A DNA stretch of 33,336 nucleotides from Alphaproteobacteria bacterium (GTDB lineage: Bacteria; Desulfobacterota; Binatia; UBA12015), in the NCBI GenBank assembly GCA_017853315.1, contig JAFMJW010000014.1:1-33336 (forward strand), given 5' to 3'. This document shows, one piece after another, positions 8,501 through 24,771 of the stretch (positions are counted from its first letter, which is position 1; each line of letters starts with the position of its first letter). Position numbers and translations under genes: made by a program. Under the pieces are notes generated by a model. That model did no database searches. It was not told the DNA's origin and saw only the letters and a program-made list of their open reading frames with translations.

Positions 8501-9010
8501 CTCGACGCGCTGCCAGCCGCTGTCGGCGCCGCGGATCACCTTGCCGCGGTCGAAGCCCTCCTGGAGCGACAGGCTCAGACCGGCGTCTCCCTCGGTCACG
8601 CCGATCGCGCGCAGCTGGCCGGCGAGCCGGTACCAGGTGCTCGGCTGGACCTGCACGACCTGGACCCAGGCGGCGTCGTTCGGCTTCGGATTGCGGACCA
8701 CGCCGATGCCGAGCCCGCTCGGGTCGCGACGCACCTCGAAGCTCGTGTCGGCGGTCTGGCTCCAGGCGGTCGTCGCCCAGCCCGGCGCGGACGCCCCGGC
8801 GCCCTCGGCGAACCCGCCGTTCAGGACGACCGACTGGGCCCGGGCGGACGGCGTCGCGAACGCGAGCAGGAGGCCTGCCGCGACGAGGAGTCCGGCGGCG
8901 AACCGCCGCGCCGCTCGGCGTTGAATTGCAACGGGGGGGTGGCTAGGGTTCGCGACCGGAATGGATCGCGCGCGTCGCACGGCGGAAGTCGCACCCGCGA
9001 CGTCGAACAT
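5513..9010 (-). CDS. CBM-like domain fused to two GT-C-type membrane glycosyltransferase halves
   Basis: The protein is about 1165 aa from the ATG at 9008-9010, which has GGGAAGAG just upstream. Order of parts: a signal-like hydrophobic segment (about 37-58); an outer beta-rich domain (60-225) paralogous to that of the next gene; a TM helix; then a first polytopic half (260-640) with DIGAYQAW, YFADYPPGYMYVLW, WGQTDS, LTKPQ and RMHERYLYPF, motifs of polyprenyl-phosphate-sugar-dependent GT-C enzymes. After an Ala-rich linker (660-690) comes a second half (695-1165) with FDEVYFVEQGRNY and DPHPPLAKL, the PMT (protein O-mannosyltransferase, GT39) signature with its acidic DE pair. Single PMT-like enzymes are usually about half this size, so this is a fusion. 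Inferred role: sugar transfer from a lipid carrier on the periplasmic side. The start is uncertain because the divergent gene begins at 8961; the frame remains open to 9142. Confidence 0.75.
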   Translation of the reverse strand: MFDVAGATSAVRRARSIPVANPSHPPVAIQRRAARRFAAGLLVAAGLLLAFATPSARAQSVVLNGGFAEGAGASAPGWATTAWSQTADTSFEVRRDPSGLGIGVVRNPKPNDAAWVQVVQVQPSTWYRLAGQLRAIGVTEGDAGLSLSLQEGFDRGKVIRGADSGWQRVEMWFKTTPDQRTANVACRLGSFGTLAAGEGWCTGIELTAQGGPPLNADYVFGPVEESTTPVGLPASLMLVGLVAYGLWRYARLPADVPLKERLVLDGILLALLAAKLLVAPIWQYKIDIGAYQAWSMKLAAEGPARFYAPGYFADYPPGYMYVLWWIGLAARALSVGAAGFVTLIKLPALLADLAVARLIFARLRGAGKKAAWLGAMAFALNPALLLDSTAWGQTDSVLALLCLFAFFAQGERRYELAWIFAAVAVLTKPQAMLIVPLLVLWPVGWWKSGRPLLAALAAFATVFVIADPFRGDRPWSWLWDLYAGTTGYYAETAVNAMNLPALLFGMRRPDATVVAGLTTQIWGYLVGGVLGLAFFVAYVRRPTRWAHASILASATLVAFMCLTRMHERYLYPFFPFAALLGLGGWLGGLYLWLSAVFFANELIVYLFQKDATAGPEWLWMTVSAAGVLGMLAWLWAMWRGANGTLGETTEAAFAPDDEGWERERVETAAAAAALRATAGRTAAGAAPAREPAWTSREAALLAALVIAAAVIRFHDLGRPPEIVFDEVYFVEQGRNYIAGKDFMDPHPPLAKLGIAAGIEMLGDQPTGWRIVNAVVGTMLVPLMYGLARALFLSPVAAGAAGLLATIDGLLIVDSRIAVIDIHYVTWAVAAYLLLIRMIRGGRLQDVPRLVALGILIGLSVGAKLYIPFFSFLLVLGTIAICGRQAALASKVPWIPFVARPVFVVGAVASAVYVLTFLPHFLWGWWHSPLDLFKYVTIKVPEYQEAVKTMTHPYSSKWWTWPLMLRPVWYFWKDPADVPGTVAGIWGAGNPTIWWASVPALLLAAWVAVRERQPAAAFVVAGWLIHVAPWVWIPRTLFLYHYLPSLLFALLALAWMLDRLWRGEGSTIERGLAGGALLASVLPACVNVAPAWAPLLFLAALVGYEGAVFSKRGSKIPVGPIAVATWCLAAIAVTAYLFPIWVGSPISKADWQSRMWISGSGFMNWI
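8921..8949 (+). promoter_or_regulatory. Weak candidate promoter for the VKOR-DsbA gene
   Basis: TTGAAT (8921-8926) and TAGGGT (8944-8949) are separated by 17 bp in a locally AT-richer patch between two divergent genes. The -35 matches 4 of 6 and the -10 only 3 of 6 consensus positions. The predicted transcript start would be only a few bases before the ATG at 8961. The patch also contains GTTG-N5-CAAC, a short inverted repeat. This is suggestive only. Confidence 0.2.
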
Positions 9011-10217
9011 CGGGGCTCTTCCCACGGTGGCCGTCATCCTCTCCGGTCTCGGCGCCGCCCTGGGAGCCGTCATCCTCTTTATCCACCAACGGATGGCTGC
9101 AAGCCAAGGGGCGTACACCAGCTTCTGCGACGTCTCGGCCAAGGTCTCCTGCGACGTCGTCCTCGGCAGCGTCTACGCGAACGTGCTGGGATTGCCAGTC
9201 GCCCTCTGGGGGGTCCTGGCGTGCCTCGCGGCCGGGGTCCTGGCCTGGACGATCGCGAGGTCGACGGGCACGGCCCGGCTGAACGCCGCCGCGGCACTCG
9301 TGGCGCTCGCGGCGGTCATGCTCGCGATCTCGCTCTGGTTCCTCTCGCTCTCGGCCTTCGTCATCCGGGTCGCGTGCCCGCTGTGCCTGTCGCTCGACGC
9401 GATCGTCCTCCTGCTGTTCGTCGCCTCGGTCGCGATCCTGCGAGGGCTGCGGTCGTCGGCCCCCGCCGGCTGGCCGTCGTGGGGCTACGTCGGAGCCGTC
9501 GCGGCGGCGGCGCTCGCCTCGGTGGCCGGCCTCGCCGGATTGCAGGTCGGCGCGCGTGCGTCGGGCGGCCCGCTCACGATCGCCGAGGTGCGCGAGCGCG
9601 ATCCGCGCTTCTACGCGTTCTACGTGTCGCAGGAGGTCGTCGACTCGGTGCCGACCGACGGCGGCCAGTCGATCGGGCGCCCCGACGCGCCCGTCACGAT
9701 CGTCGAGTTCACCGACTTCGAGTGCCCCTACTGCGCGCGCGCCTACCAGGACCTGAAGTCCGCGCTCGGCGACGCGCCGGACGTGCGCGTGGTCGTGCGC
9801 AACTTCCCGCTGAACGCGAAGTGCAACCCGCAGCTCCAGGCGGAGGTGCACGCGAACGCGTGCAAGGCCGCGGTCGCCGCCGCCTGCGCGGCGGCCCAGG
9901 GCAAGTTCGAGCAGTTCCAGGGACTGCTCTTCGAGAACCAGTCGAATCTCGACCCGGCCGCGCTCGGCGGCTACGCGGGGCGCGCCGGCCTCGACGGCGC
10001 GGAGTTCGCGCGCTGCCTCGAGTCGCCCGCGGCGAGCGCCGCGGTCGCCGCCGACGTGGCGGCCGGCGCGGCCTCCGGCGTGACCTCGACGCCCACCTTC
10101 TTCATCAACGGACGCCGAATCCCCGGGGGCTTCCAGAGCGCCGACCAGTACCGCTACGCGCTCGCGATCGAGCGCGAGCTGGCCGCGACCGCGGCCCCGA
10201 AGCCGGTGAAGCCCTGA
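8961..10217 (+). CDS. VKOR-DsbA fusion, periplasmic disulfide-forming enzyme
   Basis: The protein is 418 aa. Residues of about 20-165 form a VKOR (vitamin K epoxide reductase) domain with several membrane helices, the paired loop cysteines C56 and C64, and the redox pair CPLC (C139, C142) that passes electrons to quinone. A further helix (about 175-197) leads to a DsbA-like thioredoxin domain (about 235-410) with the active site ECPYC (C255, C258) and the cis-Pro segment TSTPTFFING. In known fusions VKOR re-oxidises its own thioredoxin domain, which oxidises exported proteins. Extra cysteines at 288, 301 and 309 may form a second disulfide. The ATG at 8961 overlaps the likely 5' end of the divergent gene by 50 bp; an in-frame GTG at 9027 is an alternative. 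Confidence 0.9.
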   Translation: MDRARRTAEVAPATSNIGALPTVAVILSGLGAALGAVILFIHQRMAASQGAYTSFCDVSAKVSCDVVLGSVYANVLGLPVALWGVLACLAAGVLAWTIARSTGTARLNAAAALVALAAVMLAISLWFLSLSAFVIRVACPLCLSLDAIVLLLFVASVAILRGLRSSAPAGWPSWGYVGAVAAAALASVAGLAGLQVGARASGGPLTIAEVRERDPRFYAFYVSQEVVDSVPTDGGQSIGRPDAPVTIVEFTDFECPYCARAYQDLKSALGDAPDVRVVVRNFPLNAKCNPQLQAEVHANACKAAVAAACAAAQGKFEQFQGLLFENQSNLDPAALGGYAGRAGLDGAEFARCLESPAASAAVAADVAAGAASGVTSTPTFFINGRRIPGGFQSADQYRYALAIERELAATAAPKPVKP

Positions 10218-17070: not shown

Positions 17071-20000
17071 TCAGGCGCGCGAGCCGAACGACTGCAGGCG
17101 GCTCCGCACCGTGCCGAGATCGCCGGTCTCGATCGGGACGCCGGCCGAGAACGCGATCACCTGCCCGCTCTGCGGCGAGAGACGGGGCCCCGGGAAGAGG
17201 ATGCCCAGCAGGTTCAGCGGGTCGGCAGCCGACACGACGAGCGGCTCGCCCGGATCGGCCTTGCGCCGGATCGCGCGCAGCGCCTCGACCGCCTCGGGCA
17301 GCGCGTACTGCTCGCCGATCGGGCCCGCGACGAAGCGTCCTCCGCGGATCTCCCCGCGCGCCTCCATCCTCCGCAGCGCGCCGAGCAGGAGTCGCCAGGG
17401 CGGCATGACCGCCTCTCGCGCGACCACCTCCCGCAGGACCACGCCCCAGCGCCGCAGCAGCACCCGGGCCATCGACTCCGCGAGCGCGGGCGACACCTCG
17501 GCGTCACGGACCTCGCCCGGAGCCCGTGCCTCGCCTCCGACGTCGCGCACGCGGAGCAGCGCCCAGCGTCCGGCCGGGACGCTGCGCGCACGCGCCCGTC
17601 CGCCGGTGATCGCGCGCAGCCGGGGTTCCGCGCGCCGCTTGTCGTCGGGCAGCAGCAGCGTGCGCAGACCGGCGAACCCGTCGCCGCTCACGAGCCCGCA
17701 GGACACGAGTTCCCAGAGCGCGTCCTCGGCCGCCGAGGGTAGGAGACCGGTCGAGCGGGCGATCTCGGAGAGGAACGAGGCGCCGTCGCGCGCGAGCAGC
17801 GCCATCACGTCGCGCGCGGCCTCCGACAGCGCGGACGCGGGCGACACCCGCCAGAGCGCGTCGGCTGCCTCTCGAAGGGGCGCGAGTTCCTCGCGCAGGA
17901 GCAGCGCGAGCGGCGCGTTGCGCGTCGGAGCGGTCCGCCTCCGACGGCTCGCCGTGGCGGTTCCGCGCCGCCCCCCGACGACACCCGCCGATGCGGTCTC
18001 CGCCTCGTCGGCCGTCGCGCCCCGGAGGAAGCCAGGCGGCGAGAGGCGCCCCCAGGCGACCGTGCCGGAGAAGCACGCGTCGTCGAGCAGCGATCCCGCG
18101 TAGCGCTCGACCCGCAGCGGGAGCACCGCGCGCTCCCAGGCCGGTGCCGGCAGCTCGAATCCGTGGAGGCGGGCGACCACCGCGGCGAGACCCTCGCGGC
18201 CGTGGAGGCGGGTGCCGGGCGCCGCGTGCTGCCACTCGAAGAGGAAGCGCGCGAAGTCGGCGATCGTGACCGGGTCGATCTCGCGCCGCAGGCGGCCGAG
18301 CGTGCCGCGGTGGATGCGCGCGAGCAGGCGCCGTTCGCACCACTCCTCCTCGCCCGCTCCCGGGACGAAGCGTCCGCGCAGGACGGCGCCGTCCATCTCG
18401 AGGCGCGCGAGCGCGCTCGCGACCGCCCCTCCTTCGAGCCCGAGCCGGCGCGCGAGGGCGGGCACGGTGACGGGACCGAGTGCGTCGATCCAGCCCCGCA
18501 CCGCGAGGCGGACGCAGTCCTCCGCATCGGGTGCGTCGGGGACCCCGCGCGGGACCGCGACCTCCCGCTCCCAGCTCGCCCCCGCAAGCGCGCGCCGCGC
18601 GACGTCGGCGCGCTCGGCCGCGACGGCCGCGCGCACGGTCGTCCCGTCCGCGGGCGAGGTCCAGCGCAGCACGCCCGCGCGCGCACCTGCGAGCAGCCGG
18701 TCGAGGAGCGGCTCCCAGCCGTCCGCGAGTGCGTCGAGCGGCAGCCACACGAGCCCGTGGAGCGCGTCGTGGAGCTCGTCGTCGTCGCGCACGTCGGGCC
18801 AGGCCTGCCGGCGCACCTCCTCGATCGAGTCCACGTCGAGCGCGCCGATCCCGTCGGCGAGGCTCGGGTCCGATCGGCGCAGGTTCACGGCGCGTGCCCG
18901 GCGCTCCTCGAGCGGCGCGTCGTCGAGGAAGGCGTAGGGGTTCGCGTTCAGCAGCTCGTGCGCCATGGGCGAGGGCGCCGCGGTCTCGACCGAGACGGTC
19001 GCGATCGCGCCGGTGCGGACGTCTTCGAGCACCGCGCGCAGGCCGTCGATGTCCATCGCGTCGTGCAGGCAGTCGCGCAGGGTCTCGTTCACGAGCGGGT
19101 GGTCGACCGGCTCGATCGGTCCCATGCGGTTGTCGCCGCAGCCGAGCTGGGCGGGGAAGACGGCGGCGAGCAGGTCCTCGGCGCGCATGCGCTGGATGTT
19201 GAGCGGCACCCGCCGTCCGCCCTGGTGGCGCAGGAGCGCCAGCGCCCGGCTCGCGTTCCAGCGCCAGCGGGTGCCGAACATCGGCGCCTGCAGTGCCGCC
19301 TGCACGAGGTCGTCCTCGAGCGTCGCCGGGCGGATCATCGTGAAGACGGAGTCGAGCGGGAAGCTGTGCTGCTCGCCGAGCGAGAGCACGATGCCGTCGT
19401 CGGTCGCGGCCGCCTGCAATTCGAAGTCGAAGCCGACGCAGAAGCGCTTGCGGAGCGCGAGCCCGAAGGCGCGGTTCACGGCACCGCCGAAGGGTGCGTG
19501 CACGACGAGCTGCATGCCGCCGCTCTCGTCGAAGAAGCGCTCGGCGACGATGCGGGTGCGGGTCGGCACGGTCCCGAGCACCGCGACCGTCCCGCCCACG
19601 TAGGCGACGAGCTGTGCCGCGGCGCCCGCGTCGGTGCCGCACTCGGAGGCGACCCAGGCCGCGGCGGCCGCGGGATCGGAGAGGCGGTCGGCGATCCCCT
19701 GGCGCAGCGCGCCCACGGCCTCGGAGAGCTCGAGCGTGCGCGGCGGGGCCTCGCCGAACCAGAACGGGATCGTCGGCGGCGCCTGCCCCGCGTCCTCGAC
19801 GCGCACCTTGCCGATCTCGACGCGGCGAATCTTCCAGGAGCGGTTCCCGAGCAGGAAGATGTCGCCGCGCATGCTCTCGATCGCGAAGTCCTCGTTCACC
19901 TTGCCGACGCGCGCCTCGGTCGGCTCCTCGACGACGTCGAAGTCGGCGGTGTCGGGGATCGCGCCGCCGCTCGTCATCGCGGCGAGCCGCGCGCCGCGGC

Positions 20001-21573
20001 GTCCGCGCACCCGCTCCTGCACGCGGTCGTGGTGGAGGTGGGCCGAGCGCCGCCCGCGGCGCGTCGCGACCCCCTCGGAGAGCATCTCCAGCACTTCGTC
20101 GAACTCGGAGCGCTCGAGGTTGCGCCACGGCCAGGCGCGGCGCGCGAGCCGGTAGAGGTCCTCGGTCGGGGTCTCGTCGGCCGCGGCGGTCGCGACCATC
20201 TGCTGGGCGAGGATGTCGAGCGGCTTGCCGGGCAGCTTGATCCGGTCGAGCTCGCCCGCGCGGATCGCGCGCACGGCGGCCGCCGTCTGCAGGAGCTCGT
20301 CGCGGGTCAACGGGAAGAAGACGCCGCGCGGCACGCTGCCGAGCCAGTGGCCGGAGCGGCCGACCCGCTGCAGCAGCGTCGCGAGCGCGCGCGGCGCGCC
20401 GACGTGGCAGACCAGGTCGACGTGGCCGACGTCGATGCCGAGCTCGAGCGACGCGGTCGCGACGACGATCGGCACCTCGCCCGACTTGAGCTTCTCCTCG
20501 GCTGCGAGCCGGATGCGCTTGTCGAGGCTGCCGTGGTGGGCCGCGACGCGCTCGGGCCCGATCTTCTCGCCGAGCGCGTGGGCGACCCGCTCGACCAGGC
20601 GGCGGGTGTTCACGAACACGATCGTCGTGCGATGCGCGGCCGCGAGCTCGACGATCCGGTCGTGGACCGCGTCGCGCAGCTCGTGGCTCGCGATCGGGCC
20701 GAGCTCGAACGACGGCACGGTCTCGACCGAGAGCTCCATCGCGCGGCGGTGGCCGCCGTCGATGATCGCGCAGTCGGGCGTGCCGTCGGCGGCGACGTTG
20801 GAGGTGCCGACGAGCCAGCGCGCGATCTCGTCGATCGGCTTCTGGGTCGCCGAGAGCCCGATCCGCTGGACGCGCGGGCGGAGCCCGGCGCGCGCGGGCG
20901 ATTCGTCGTCGAACAGGCGAAGCGACTCGCCGGGGCGCGGCCCGGTCGCGTCGCCGGTCTCCTCGCCGTCCGCGGGGTGACGCGGGCCTTCAGCGACGAG
21001 CGCATCCAGGCGCTCGATCGAGAACGCGAGGTGGGATCCACGCTTGTCGCCCGCCATCGCGTGGATCTCGTCGACGATGACGGTGCGCGCGCCGGAGAGC
21101 ATGCGGCGGCCCCTCTCCGCGGTGAGCAGGATGAAGAGCGACTCGGGCGTCGTGATGAGCACGTGCGGGGGGCGGCGCAGCATCGCCTGGCGCTCGCTCG
21201 AGGTGGTGTCGCCGCTGCGGACGGCGATCCGGACGTCGTCGAGCGGGATGCCCTCCGCCGCCGCGAGCTCGCGGATCTCGGCGAGCGGGCGCGCGAGGTT
21301 CTTCTCGACGTCATTGCCGAGCGCCTTCAGCGGCGAGACGTAGACGACGCGGGTCGCGTCCTCGAGGGTGCCCGCGCGCGCGTCGCGGACGAGGCCGTCG
21401 ATCGCCCAGAGGAACGCGGCGAGCGTCTTGCCCGAGCCGGTCGGTGCGGCGATGAGCGCGTGGCGGCCCGCGGCGATCGCCGCCCAGCCGTCGCGCTGGG
21501 GAGGCGTCGGCGAGCCGAAGCGGCCGGCGAACCAGCGCGCGACGAGGGGGTCGAAGTCGACGGGGGTCGTCAC
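17071..21573 (-). CDS. lhr: Full-length Lhr superfamily-2 helicase
   Basis: The protein is 1500 aa, the size of long-form Lhr, an ATP-driven 3'-5' DNA/RNA-DNA helicase linked to DNA repair. RecA-like core motifs: AAPTGSGKT (42-50), SPLKALGNDVEKNL, VRSGDT, TTPESLFILL, DEIH (168-171), LSAT (240-243), HHGSL, ASLELGIDVG and LQRVGRSGH (401-409). The winged-helix and Lhr-specific core follow, and then the large C-terminal domain (about 870-1500) with the typical FLFEWQHAAPGTRLHGREGL and LPLRVERYAG segments. Odd points: about 40 acidic and Pro-rich residues (about 195-235) are inserted between DEIH and SAT, and an Arg/Thr-rich low-complexity patch sits near SGVVGG/TASRRRR in the C-terminal half. The start is the GTG at 21571-21573 (VTTPVD). 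The long open frames on the opposite strand are base-composition shadows. Confidence 0.95.
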   Translation of the reverse strand: MTTPVDFDPLVARWFAGRFGSPTPPQRDGWAAIAAGRHALIAAPTGSGKTLAAFLWAIDGLVRDARAGTLEDATRVVYVSPLKALGNDVEKNLARPLAEIRELAAAEGIPLDDVRIAVRSGDTTSSERQAMLRRPPHVLITTPESLFILLTAERGRRMLSGARTVIVDEIHAMAGDKRGSHLAFSIERLDALVAEGPRHPADGEETGDATGPRPGESLRLFDDESPARAGLRPRVQRIGLSATQKPIDEIARWLVGTSNVAADGTPDCAIIDGGHRRAMELSVETVPSFELGPIASHELRDAVHDRIVELAAAHRTTIVFVNTRRLVERVAHALGEKIGPERVAAHHGSLDKRIRLAAEEKLKSGEVPIVVATASLELGIDVGHVDLVCHVGAPRALATLLQRVGRSGHWLGSVPRGVFFPLTRDELLQTAAAVRAIRAGELDRIKLPGKPLDILAQQMVATAAADETPTEDLYRLARRAWPWRNLERSEFDEVLEMLSEGVATRRGRRSAHLHHDRVQERVRGRRGARLAAMTSGGAIPDTADFDVVEEPTEARVGKVNEDFAIESMRGDIFLLGNRSWKIRRVEIGKVRVEDAGQAPPTIPFWFGEAPPRTLELSEAVGALRQGIADRLSDPAAAAAWVASECGTDAGAAAQLVAYVGGTVAVLGTVPTRTRIVAERFFDESGGMQLVVHAPFGGAVNRAFGLALRKRFCVGFDFELQAAATDDGIVLSLGEQHSFPLDSVFTMIRPATLEDDLVQAALQAPMFGTRWRWNASRALALLRHQGGRRVPLNIQRMRAEDLLAAVFPAQLGCGDNRMGPIEPVDHPLVNETLRDCLHDAMDIDGLRAVLEDVRTGAIATVSVETAAPSPMAHELLNANPYAFLDDAPLEERRARAVNLRRSDPSLADGIGALDVDSIEEVRRQAWPDVRDDDELHDALHGLVWLPLDALADGWEPLLDRLLAGARAGVLRWTSPADGTTVRAAVAAERADVARRALAGASWEREVAVPRGVPDAPDAEDCVRLAVRGWIDALGPVTVPALARRLGLEGGAVASALARLEMDGAVLRGRFVPGAGEEEWCERRLLARIHRGTLGRLRREIDPVTIADFARFLFEWQHAAPGTRLHGREGLAAVVARLHGFELPAPAWERAVLPLRVERYAGSLLDDACFSGTVAWGRLSPPGFLRGATADEAETASAGVVGGRRGTATASRRRRTAPTRNAPLALLLREELAPLREAADALWRVSPASALSEAARDVMALLARDGASFLSEIARSTGLLPSAAEDALWELVSCGLVSGDGFAGLRTLLLPDDKRRAEPRLRAITGGRARARSVPAGRWALLRVRDVGGEARAPGEVRDAEVSPALAESMARVLLRRWGVVLREVVAREAVMPPWRLLLGALRRMEARGEIRGGRFVAGPIGEQYALPEAVEALRAIRRKADPGEPLVVSAADPLNLLGILFPGPRLSPQSGQVIAFSAGVPIETGDLGTVRSRLQSFGSRA

Positions 21574-21788: not shown

Positions 21789-21818
21789 TTGATACGCCGT
21801 CATTTTTCCGGGAAAAAT
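21789..21818 (+). promoter_or_regulatory. Candidate promoter for the DUF4143-type ATPase gene
   Basis: TTGATA (21789-21794) is followed after 18 bp by AAAAAT (21813-21818), a 5/6 and 4/6 match to -35 and -10. The predicted RNA start falls near 21825, after the ATG at 21817. That would favour translation from the TTG at 21838, which has GGAG (21825-21828) nine bases upstream. The -10 and spacer lie inside the palindrome at 21795-21825, so a protein bound there would block this promoter. Confidence 0.35.
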
Positions 21819-21825
21819 GACGGCG
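21795..21825. repeat. Perfect 31-bp palindrome spanning the ATPase start
   Basis: The left arm CGCCGTCATTTTTCC (21795-21809), a single central G (21810) and the right arm GGAAAAATGACGGCG (21811-21825) match perfectly. It covers the ATG at 21817-21819. Its A/T runs stand out sharply in this GC-rich region. With a 1-base centre it suits a homodimeric DNA-binding protein better than an RNA terminator. It may be an autoregulatory operator for the ATPase gene. Confidence 0.75.
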
Positions 21826-22998
21826 GAGTCTAACCATTTGGAATTACATCGATTACTGGTCCCTCCGGAGGGTTCGTTCTTCCTCTTCGGGGCCCGCGGG
21901 ACGGGGAAGAGCACCTGGCTTCGTCGCCACTATGGCGACGCGACCTACCTCGACCTGCTCGACGAAAAGCTCTTCCACTCGCTCCTCGTCGACCCGGGGT
22001 TGCTGGCAGGGCGTCTCGAAGCCTTGCCGCCGGGGTCGCGGGTCGTCATCGACGGGATCCAGCGGCTGCCGTCGCTGCTGAACGAGGCGCACCGCTTCAT
22101 CGAATCGCGCCGGCTCACCTTCGCCCTCTCGGGATCGAGCGCGCGCAAGCTGCGGGCGGCGGGCACCAATCTGCTCGCTGGCCGCGCGATCCGGAAGGCA
22201 CTGTATCCCCTCGTTCCGGAGGAGATGGGAAACGCGTTCGACCTCGAGCGCGTCCTCACCCACGGGAGCCTCGCACTGGTGTGGGACCGCGGCGGTGATC
22301 GCGAGGTGCTCGAGGCCTACCTGCAGACGTATCTTCGCGAAGAGATCCAGGCCGAAGCGTTGGTGCGCAACCTTCCTGGCTTCGCCCGCTTCCTGCCGGT
22401 GGCGGCGCTCCTTCACGGCCAGGTGCTCAACGCTGCCGGACTCGCTCGCGACGCGGGCGTCTCACGCAGCACCGTGCTCGGCTACCTCGACATCCTCGAA
22501 GACACCCTTCTCGCCTTCCGCCTCCCGGCGTACGAGGGCAAGCTGCGGGTGAAGGAGAGGCGTCACCCGAAACTCTACTGGATCGATCCCGGCCTCGCGC
22601 GCGCCGCCCGTCACCGGTTCGGCGCGCTGGTCGACGAGGAGCGCGGCGCGCTCTTCGAGGGGTGGCTCGCGATGGTGCTGCAAGCCTACCGTGCGTATCG
22701 CCATCTCTTCGAGGACTGGAACTACTGGGCGCCCACGCAGTCCGCGGCACTCGAGGTCGACTTCCTGCTGTGGCGTGACGACGCGTGCGTGGCGATCGAA
22801 GCCAAGGCAAGCACGCGCTACCGGCCGGAGTTTGCCAGGGGACCGGAGACGTTTGCCGCGAGCTATGGCGGCAAGCAGCGGCCGAAAACCATCGTCGTGT
22901 ATCTAGGGTCGCACCGCTTGCAGACGCCGGGGGGAACGCAGGTGCTTCCGCTCCGTGACTTTCTCGATCTGGTCGAGAGGGACCGGCTGTTCACCTAG
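21817..22998 (+). CDS. AAA_14/DUF4143-type ATPase with altered Walker B
   Basis: The protein is 393 aa. Walker A is FGARGTGKST (24-33). The Walker B position reads RVVIDGIQRLP (75-85), where the family normally has DEIQ, so the catalytic Glu is Gly (codon GGG). The sensor segment is FALSGSSARKL. A winged-helix part follows at about 200-240 (VLNAAGLARDAGVSRSTVLGYLDILEDTLLAFRL). The C-terminal domain looks like a PD-(D/E)xK fold, with E313-V-D315 and E328-A-K330. Such proteins are common, often single genes of unknown role, sometimes proposed to be mobile or defence-related. The codons are less GC-biased than in the neighbours and the gene is flanked by non-coding DNA, which hints at transfer. 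The TTG at 21838 with a good GGAG is an alternative start that would remove seven residues. Confidence 0.85.
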   Translation: MTAESNHLELHRLLVPPEGSFFLFGARGTGKSTWLRRHYGDATYLDLLDEKLFHSLLVDPGLLAGRLEALPPGSRVVIDGIQRLPSLLNEAHRFIESRRLTFALSGSSARKLRAAGTNLLAGRAIRKALYPLVPEEMGNAFDLERVLTHGSLALVWDRGGDREVLEAYLQTYLREEIQAEALVRNLPGFARFLPVAALLHGQVLNAAGLARDAGVSRSTVLGYLDILEDTLLAFRLPAYEGKLRVKERRHPKLYWIDPGLARAARHRFGALVDEERGALFEGWLAMVLQAYRAYRHLFEDWNYWAPTQSAALEVDFLLWRDDACVAIEAKASTRYRPEFARGPETFAASYGGKQRPKTIVVYLGSHRLQTPGGTQVLPLRDFLDLVERDRLFT

Positions 22999-23379
22999 GG
23001 GTCCCCGGCGGTCGATGTCGTCCGGAAGCTGCGGCAGGACCAGCGTGAGTGCCGCGTTGACCGCTTCGGCAGGATGAAGTCTGAACGGCGAACTGGTCGA
23101 CGCTCGGCTTCGGTTCAGGCGAAGGGCGGTTGGCGAAGGCCTGCAGCGGGGTGAGTCAGGCAGAGGGTCAACCAGCGGCAGAGCGAACCCTCGCCCGATG
23201 AGGACGCGGGCAAGGGGCGTCGGGCGCGGTGGTGCGCTACCTGCGGTCCGAGGTCGAGCCCAGAGAGCGGTGCCGAGTCTGCGCGTGGTGCCACGGCGGA
23301 GCCCGCCCCAGAGAGGAGCCCGCCGGCGGGAACGCCTGCGAAAATTGCACCCCCCGTTGGGGCGTGCGACCCTCCCCCG
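22999..23379. other. Gene-free 381-bp gap
   Basis: No frame here gives a recognisable protein on either strand, and the frames lack the strong G/C third-position pattern of the neighbours. It starts with CACCTAGGG (22992-23000), which also occurs at 21684-21692 before the ATPase gene. CCCGCCGGCGGG (23319-23330) is a perfect 12-bp palindrome. GCAC-C-CCCC / GGGG-C-GTGC (23347-23367) is a 9-bp stem with one mismatch, ending 13 bases before the cca start, and AAAATT just before it is the only AT-rich hexamer. It may be an eroded insertion plus the cca leader. Confidence 0.5.
23347..23367 (+). promoter_or_regulatory. Hairpin in the cca leader
   Basis: Bases 23347-23355 pair with 23359-23367 around the loop GTT, with one C-C mismatch. 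The stem ends 12 bases before the ATG at 23380, so in RNA it would sit at the ribosome-binding region. It could modulate translation of cca, or it could be chance in GC-rich DNA. Confidence 0.3.
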
Positions 23380-24771
23380 ATGGAGCCGGGCGTCGCAGTC
23401 GGCGCGACCGCCCCGCCCGAGCGCGACCCGCGCCGGGCGCGCCGGGCCGCCGAGACCGTGGTCGCGCGCCTGCGCGCGGCCGGTCACGAGGCGCTCCTCG
23501 CCGGCGGCTGCGTCCGCGACCTGCTGCTCGGCCGCGAGCCGCTCGACTACGACGTCGCCACCTCGGCGCCGGCCTCCCTGGTCCAGCGGATTTTCCCCCG
23601 CACCGTCCCCGTCGGCGTGCAGTTCGGCGTCGTCCTCGTGCTGGAGCAGGGCGAGAAGATCGAGGTCGCGACCTTCCGCAGCGACGGCCGCTACGTCGAC
23701 CATCGCCACCCGGTCGAGGTGACGCCGAGCGACGCGCGCGGCGACGCGCGGCGTCGCGACTTCACGGTGAACGGCATGTTCCTCGACCCCGACCGGCCTT
23801 CCGAGCCGATCGACTGGGTCGGCGGGCGCGCCGACTTGGAGCGCGGCGTCGTGCGCGCGATCGGCGACCCGCGCGCGCGCTTCGACGAGGACCGGCTGCG
23901 GCTGTTGCGCGCGGTGCGCTTCGCCGCCCGCTTCGGCTGGGAGATCGAGCCCGGCACGCTGGCCGCGATCGAGAGCCTCGCGCCGACGGTCACGACCATC
24001 GCCTGGGAGCGGATCGGCGACGAGGTCGTGAAGATCCTGCTCGAAGGCGGCGCGCGCCGCGGCTTCGAGATGCTGGAGACGACCGGGCTGCTCGCGGCCG
24101 TGCTGCCCGAGGTCGCCGAGATGCGGCGGGTCGAGCAGTCGCCGGACCACCACCCCGAGGGCGACGTGCTCGCCCACACGCTGCTCTGCCTGGGACGCAT
24201 CGAGCCCGCGCGCCACTCCGAGCACGTGGCGCTGGCTCTCCTCCTCCACGACGTCGAGAAGCGCTCCTGCGCCGAGCGCCGACCCGACGGCCGGATCACC
24301 TTCCACGGCCACTGCGAGCGCGGTGCCGAGACGGCGGCCGCGATCGTGCGACGGCTGCGGCGCAGCGGCGACGTCGAGAGTCGCGTCGCCTGGCTCGTCG
24401 ACCGCCATCTCTCGCACCTCGACGCGCCCCGGATGCGCGCGTCCACCCTGCGCCGCTTCCTCGGCGAGCCGTGGATCGACGACCTGCTCGAGGTGATCCG
24501 GATCGACGCGCTCTCGGGCAGCGGCGATCTCGGCCCGTGGGAGTTCTGCCGCGCGAGCCGCGACTCGCTGCCCGGCCACGCGGTGCTGCCCGAGCCTCTC
24601 CTGCGCGGCCGCGACCTGCTCGACCTGGGCTACCGCCCGGGCCCGCGCCTCGGCGAGATCCTCGACCGCGCCTTCGACGCGCAGCTCGAGGGCGAGCTCG
24701 TCGACGCCGAGCAGGCGCGGGCCTGGGTGCTGGACCGCTTCCCGCCCGCAGCGGAGCCGCAAGGCCGATGA
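23380..24771 (+). CDS. cca: CCA tRNA nucleotidyltransferase with HD domain
   Basis: The protein is 463 aa, a class II nucleotidyltransferase. Motifs in order: LAGGCVRDLLLG (40-51), LDYDVAT with the two metal-binding Asp residues (D56, D58), IEVATFR, RRDFTVNGM (125-133), and RFDEDRLRLLRAVRFAARFG (167-186), the EDxxR template block. An HD-type phosphohydrolase domain follows, with H266, HD (290-291), FHGHCERGAETA and RHLSHLD. The usual HDVGK reads HDVEK. The family adds or repairs the 3' CCA of tRNA. Poly(A) polymerase I is the close alternative, but it normally lacks an HD domain. The stop overlaps the next gene's start as ATGA, so it is coupled to an ABC importer. Confidence 0.9.
   Translation: MEPGVAVGATAPPERDPRRARRAAETVVARLRAAGHEALLAGGCVRDLLLGREPLDYDVATSAPASLVQRIFPRTVPVGVQFGVVLVLEQGEKIEVATFRSDGRYVDHRHPVEVTPSDARGDARRRDFTVNGMFLDPDRPSEPIDWVGGRADLERGVVRAIGDPRARFDEDRLRLLRAVRFAARFGWEIEPGTLAAIESLAPTVTTIAWERIGDEVVKILLEGGARRGFEMLETTGLLAAVLPEVAEMRRVEQSPDHHPEGDVLAHTLLCLGRIEPARHSEHVALALLLHDVEKRSCAERRPDGRITFHGHCERGAETAAAIVRRLRRSGDVESRVAWLVDRHLSHLDAPRMRASTLRRFLGEPWIDDLLEVIRIDALSGSGDLGPWEFCRASRDSLPGHAVLPEPLLRGRDLLDLGYRPGPRLGEILDRAFDAQLEGELVDAEQARAWVLDRFPPAAEPQGR

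Follow-up and report, generated by a model that had tools for sequence, protein, structure and literature searches.

A palindrome at the promoter of a stand-alone ATPase gene

What does a perfect palindrome do at the promoter of a single ATPase gene, and which protein reads it? In the window, by which we mean the whole stretch of 33,336 nucleotides analysed here, the palindrome covers positions 21795-21825 (31 bp, assigned to neither strand). As the initial annotation had reported, two 15-bp arms of 100% complementarity (left arm CGCCGTCATTTTTCC, 21795-21809; right arm GGAAAAATGACGGCG, 21811-21825) flank a 1-nt centre, the base g at 21810, at the start of the ATPase gene. A short-spaced palindrome with perfect 15-bp arms is expected by chance at well under one per window, and a genome-wide search found the arm to be single-copy in the 4.0-Mb assembly at up to two mismatches per arm, bar one unrelated match with two mismatches. 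No Rfam match was found in the window. The arms contain the half-site cores CGTCA (21798-21802, plus strand) and TGACG (21818-21822, plus strand). We consider it likely that the palindrome is the gene's private operator, bound by the winged helix of the ATPase itself, and that this binding probably represses the gene.

The only sigma-70-like match nearby is the candidate promoter TTGATA-18-AAAAAT (21789-21818, plus strand), for which 0.0 matches are expected in shuffled sequences and which is overlapped by the palindrome; homology points to an alternative -10 at 21790-21795 (plus strand), 15 bp before the operator centre. A GGAG ribosome-binding site, predicted from the sequence (21825-21828, plus strand), overlaps the end of the right arm, and the in-frame TTG noticed earlier follows at 21838, 9 nt past it. 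The palindrome had been described as lying over both the candidate -10 and the ATG. Both are indeed overlapped, with ATG 21817 located within the right arm; however, this ATG is probably not the start codon, since the starts of homologues coincide with the TTG position when aligned and the operator centre lies at -28 from TTG 21838, matching the -26 to -29 seen in half of the aligned relatives. On these two grounds ATG 21817 was rejected in favour of TTG 21838 as the probable start, and the gene is taken to span 21838-22998 (plus strand), annotatable from ATG 21817.

The encoded protein belongs to the AAA_14-DUF4143 family, with scores of 55.0 bits to PF13173 (cut-off 27) and 95.1 bits to PF13635 (cut-off 28.1), and it matches the PADLOC profile PDC-S01 at E = 2.2e-43. 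Numbered from ATG 21817, residues 21-136 form the AAA_14 P-loop ATPase domain (21877-22224, plus strand), and residues about 186-236 a predicted winged helix-turn-helix domain (22372-22524, plus strand). The winged-helix part mentioned in the initial annotation is borne out by an AlphaFold model (pLDDT 92), in which a winged helix with recognition helix and wing is predicted after the ATPase core, and by Pfam HTH matches in relatives: the Thermus member matches the IclR and ArsR HTH models above cut-off, and the window protein itself reaches only a sub-threshold Pfam HTH match (E 0.011). The putative recognition helix RSTVLGYLDILED (residues 217-229; 22465-22503, plus strand) was placed from helix 210-222 of the model and from the covariation scan described below. 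In the C-terminal domain, E313, D315, E328 and K330 (22753-22806, plus strand) are invariant across 37 aligned sequences and supply the acidic residues and ExK motif of a PD-(D/E)XK-like signature, and the NERD nuclease model matches seven of the 37. The signature marks this domain as PD-(D/E)XK-like and as a putative nuclease. No NCBIfam model matched the window protein, and a PDB sequence search with it returned weak AAA matches only.

The gene stands between an Lhr-type helicase gene on its left (17071-21573, minus strand) and a poly(A) polymerase gene (pcnB-like) on its right (23380-24771, plus strand), and no convincing second gene of a type II toxin-antitoxin operon is present between the two. 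Eight relatives in the family have Lhr and pcnB adjacent, 35-268 bp apart and without the ATPase gene, although the boundaries are not resolved to the base; the gene was therefore probably acquired. We suggest, from these comparisons, that it probably arrived horizontally as a one-gene unit inserted between 21574 and 23339. In a genome of the same genus, where Lhr is not a neighbour of pcnB, homology restarts only at 23339, shortly ahead of pcnB. At the two loci sampled there (L344 and L345, G407:C7), the surroundings of pcnB are unlike those of family members with Lhr beside pcnB, and the Lhr-pcnB junction has thus been rearranged more than once. Neither terminal inverted repeats nor a second palindrome were found on the 3' side, and no recombinase or terminal repeat delimits a cassette at the locus. 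The palindrome lies at the promoter only, and the mobile cassette proposed initially is therefore too strong a description. Elsewhere in the window, at 8961-10217, one ORF fuses a VKOR domain to a DsbA-like thioredoxin domain, a natural fusion.

Recurrence of the site upstream of homologous genes

Our sample of homologues comprised 262 distinct loci from the phylum itself and from a range of more than 25 phyla, to which distant DUF4143 genes were then added. The clade of the window protein comprises proteins 49-57% identical to it, from Gamma-, Alpha- and Deltaproteobacteria, Acidobacteria, Acidimicrobiia, Chloroflexi, Gemmatimonadota, Oligoflexia, Spirochaetaceae, Marinamargulisbacteria and others. 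The same promoter site, TGTCGTCA-N15-TGACGACA with the core TTTC-N3-GAAA, precedes 20 homologues that are about 50-57% identical and come from more than 10 phyla. These 20 promoters, chosen by eye and aligned on the half-site cores, give the gapless consensus TGTCGTCAwwTTTCnnnGAAAAATGACGACA, in which the 15-bp spacing between the CGTCA and TGACG cores is invariant (20/20) and the left core carries about 1.4-2.0 bits per position at d=8-12. An inverted repeat of fixed geometry is thus kept over the promoter among homologues, and the arm sequence that the initial annotation proposed to look for upstream of close homologues is there.

The linkage between site and gene was also examined from the side of the site. 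A blind scan of 395 genomes with CGTCANNTTTCNNNGAAANNTGACG, allowing one mismatch, returned six sites, as against none for the reversed-pattern control, and in four of the six cases a DUF4143 gene follows directly, one of these sites (G469) being new to the sample. At another (L395, G473:C153, about 1501-1600) the spacing is perfect and the site is followed by ATGATGCTGAGACAATAA and a terminator with no ATPase gene, which is probably a deletion relic of a lost DUF4143 gene; the remaining site (G145) is located elsewhere. Shorter or looser patterns were less useful: CGTCA-N15-TGACG gave 224 matches versus 117 for its control in this GC-rich genome and was dropped for the longer core, and the operator pattern with three mismatches stayed near the control level. 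Scans of viral contigs found no exact operator, and plasmid and phage collections contained distant copies of the gene only.

Outside the window clade, other DUF4143 clades carry unlike palindromes at the same place, for example TTGACAAGAGCAATTTATCCGGATAAATTGCTCTTGTCATG, TTGTAAAATTGCAtTGCAATTTTACAA and TCGTCATTTG..CATGATATATGACGA, so that no single arm sequence marks the whole gene family; the site differs by protein clade. Promoter palindromes with a score of at least 7 were found in 43% of the first 89 genes, versus 3.6% of dinucleotide shuffles, 1.3% of windows inside genes and 5.7% of windows further upstream. At a score of at least 8 they were found in 25% of 261 genes, versus 4.5% of 132 neighbouring genes on the same contigs (Fisher p = 8e-8), and in this sample the centres gather at -10 to -40. 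Among distant subfamilies of about 30% identity the figures are 42% versus 3%. In over half of the homologues, no palindrome exceeds the threshold. Sequence comparison thus establishes the site, its fixed geometry at the promoter, its linkage to the gene and its diversification clade by clade.

Palindromes also accompany the copies on viral contigs (L387, L392) and the Thermus plasmid gene TT_P0211. On two IMG/VR contigs (L392 and L393), a near-perfect palindrome with 21-bp arms lies over the DUF4143 start codon, and TT_P0211 (L386, 14854-16074; T. thermophilus pTT27) has two inverted repeats ahead of its start, one being TGCCATCTCCC/GAGAGATGGCA and the other TTGAATGA/TCATTCAA. Some members have tandem copies upstream of the start, three resembling TTTATCATGATAA at L163 and two of TTGACGACGGCGTCGTCA at L128, which suggests that multi-site repression may occur in some members. 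The window genome itself holds two further DUF4143 genes (G000:C385, locus L040, and G000:C89:3848-4378), and L040 carries its own, different palindrome, ACTTTCGTTCATCATGATAATCGAAAGT.

Candidate readers of the palindrome

A plain dispersed repeat, or a palindrome arisen by chance, can practically be dismissed. Chance does produce lower-scoring palindromes (at score 7, in 9% of control promoters), but the conservation among homologues and the uniqueness of the arm in the genome refute both, and the many copies unrelated to the gene that would have spoken for a dispersed repeat were not found in the genomes scanned. The palindrome might instead fold in RNA and mask the ribosome-binding site or start codon, and the window hairpin would indeed be very stable, at -25.1 kcal/mol (z -3.9) over 71 nt and -21.5 kcal/mol for the operator by itself. 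However, in about half of the clade exactly 15 bp separate the end of the -10 from the operator centre. Judged from predicted starts, the left half-site there coincides with the transcription start or precedes it, which argues against an RNA hairpin, and the one sigma-70-like promoter of the window leaves the whole palindrome upstream of its predicted start. Moreover, four of the 20 relatives form weak hairpins though their half-sites are conserved, the clade alignment shows no excess of G-T mismatches over the column expectation at d=13-15, and those within palindromes are few (G-T 17, A-C 9, other 68). We therefore regard the hairpin as very improbable. Several other clades have the layout TTGACA-half-site-TATAAT-half-site-ATG, with little or no leader. 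A site of cutting, replication or transposition, serving the ATPase-nuclease as substrate and overlapping the promoter incidentally, would suit a horizontally mobile gene whose product combines an ATPase with a PD-(D/E)XK-like nuclease signature, and nucleases can target palindromes. Such a substrate or recombination site is nevertheless quite unlikely, given that the palindromes cluster at the promoter, at fixed distances from the -10 and the start, are not at the 3' end of the gene, and come with neither terminal repeats nor defined boundaries.

A protein-binding operator does not by itself name its binder, and a separate host regulator, for instance one that globally represses acquired or defence genes, could bind the palindrome; dedicated repressors of defence islands exist, RptR being an example (PMC12255303). 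The same operator, however, accompanies the gene across phyla with unrelated regulators, and the arm is unique in the window genome. In addition, 208 pairs of paralogues from the same genome showed no excess of operator similarity over unrelated pairs, whereas alike proteins in different genomes share operators. Operator specificity thus tracks the protein clade and not the host genome, and since paralogues of one genome carry unlike operators, a common host regulator is unlikely.

For the protein itself as the reader, we compared windows along its full length for how well each predicts operator similarity once overall identity is accounted for. Residues 211-225 ranked first of 121 windows in the discovery set, seventh of 120 in an independent set, second of 121 for pairs including the independent set and first in all pairs; among pairs of 50-80% identity, the four best of 122 windows lay within residues 205-228. 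The effect of this helix window on operator similarity is graded, but the signal is small (partial r 0.05-0.17), and segments 70-126 and 358-372 score too. A second covariation test, restricted to loci with the strongest palindromes, weakened the claim, the helix window ranking only 9-34. Similarity of the winged helix may thus be said to predict operator similarity to a moderate degree. In two individual members of the window clade, L099 and L103, the helix has RNT for RTT and the operator ATGTAA/ATGTTAA for GTCGTCA.

Returning to the proposed private operator, we can outline how it might work. Two winged helices, from a dimer or from two subunits of a larger ring, would contact the half-sites YCGTCA and TGACGR; equivalent core positions are 20 bp apart, i.e. 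two helical turns, which would place both half-sites on one face of the DNA. The bound protein would occlude the promoter or the transcription start and keep the gene at a low level, and invading or damaged DNA, the ATPase cycle or a ligand might draw it off, raising expression. Gene, promoter and operator would then be inherited and transferred as one. The self-binding and self-repression proposed initially is in part supported by comparison, as an operator-like site recurs upstream of homologues and is not dispersed; that the protein itself binds, that binding represses and that repression is relieved we infer. Expression of TT_P0211 (AAA_14, DUF4143) rose 6.6-fold in T. thermophilus with plasmid DNA and TtAgo, and the authors propose that the Argonaute may have a direct or an indirect role (PMC4406477). 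The induction would fit release by foreign DNA, as a correlation in one strain.

Relation to known systems and significance

Autorepression by DNA-binding ATPases and repressors of defence islands are already known in kind. The partition ATPase ParA of P1 is autorepressing. RepA of repABC, an ATPase with a DNA-binding HTH part, likewise represses transcription from its own promoter by way of an inverted repeat (PMC4492784), and such autorepression is specific to the replicon and avoids cross-talk between co-resident copies, which we liken to the proposed window operator. Unlike the single, stand-alone window gene, RepA and ParA have the ParA-type deviant Walker fold, are encoded in an operon with ParB and have no nuclease. 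Meanwhile, repressors of defence islands and type II toxin-antitoxin autoregulation silence a potentially harmful defence gene through an operator palindrome, as is proposed here, but by means of dedicated repressor or antitoxin genes, whereas the window locus has no second gene. In structure, the closest likenesses are SSO1545 (2FNA) and PABY2304 (2QEN), which share an AAA core followed by a winged helix with the window protein (Z 14.9 and 14.8, 3.0-3.2 A over about 237 residues), an arrangement also found in STAND NTPases (NLR, APAF-1, CED-4). The C-terminal domain of these archaeal walker ATPases and STAND NTPases differs from that of the window protein, and we know of no operator for either group.

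The window ATPase is of the same protein family as PDC-S01 of PADLOC (AAA_14 + DUF4143 ATPases, COG1373), reported as ranking fourth in frequency among defence systems of prokaryotes, with about 39,000 detections in one survey, its function being unvalidated; validation is reported pending for most PDCs (PMC12988326). The open papers that we found on PDC-S01 describe neither an operator nor autoregulation. In the open literature searched, outside which most subscription journals fall, we found no family-wide private operator for DUF4143/PDC-S01 ATPases and no autoregulated winged-helix ATPase of this type. Tentatively, the very large PDC-S01 family of single-gene ATPase-nuclease systems may consist of self-sensing units on private operators. 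These operators would have diversified together with the recognition helix against cross-talk between co-resident paralogues, and the proteins would be released and induced on engaging foreign or abnormal DNA.

The DUF4143 family is counted among the commonest candidate phage defences, and a conserved private operator offers a handle on its mechanism. Such an operator points to sequence-specific DNA binding by the middle domain and predicts sites for many members; it would explain together how one gene can move across phyla and yet be safely regulated, and it allows induction by phages or plasmids to be tested directly in reporter assays. Should helix and operator indeed co-vary, the family would provide a large natural set for a winged-helix recognition code.
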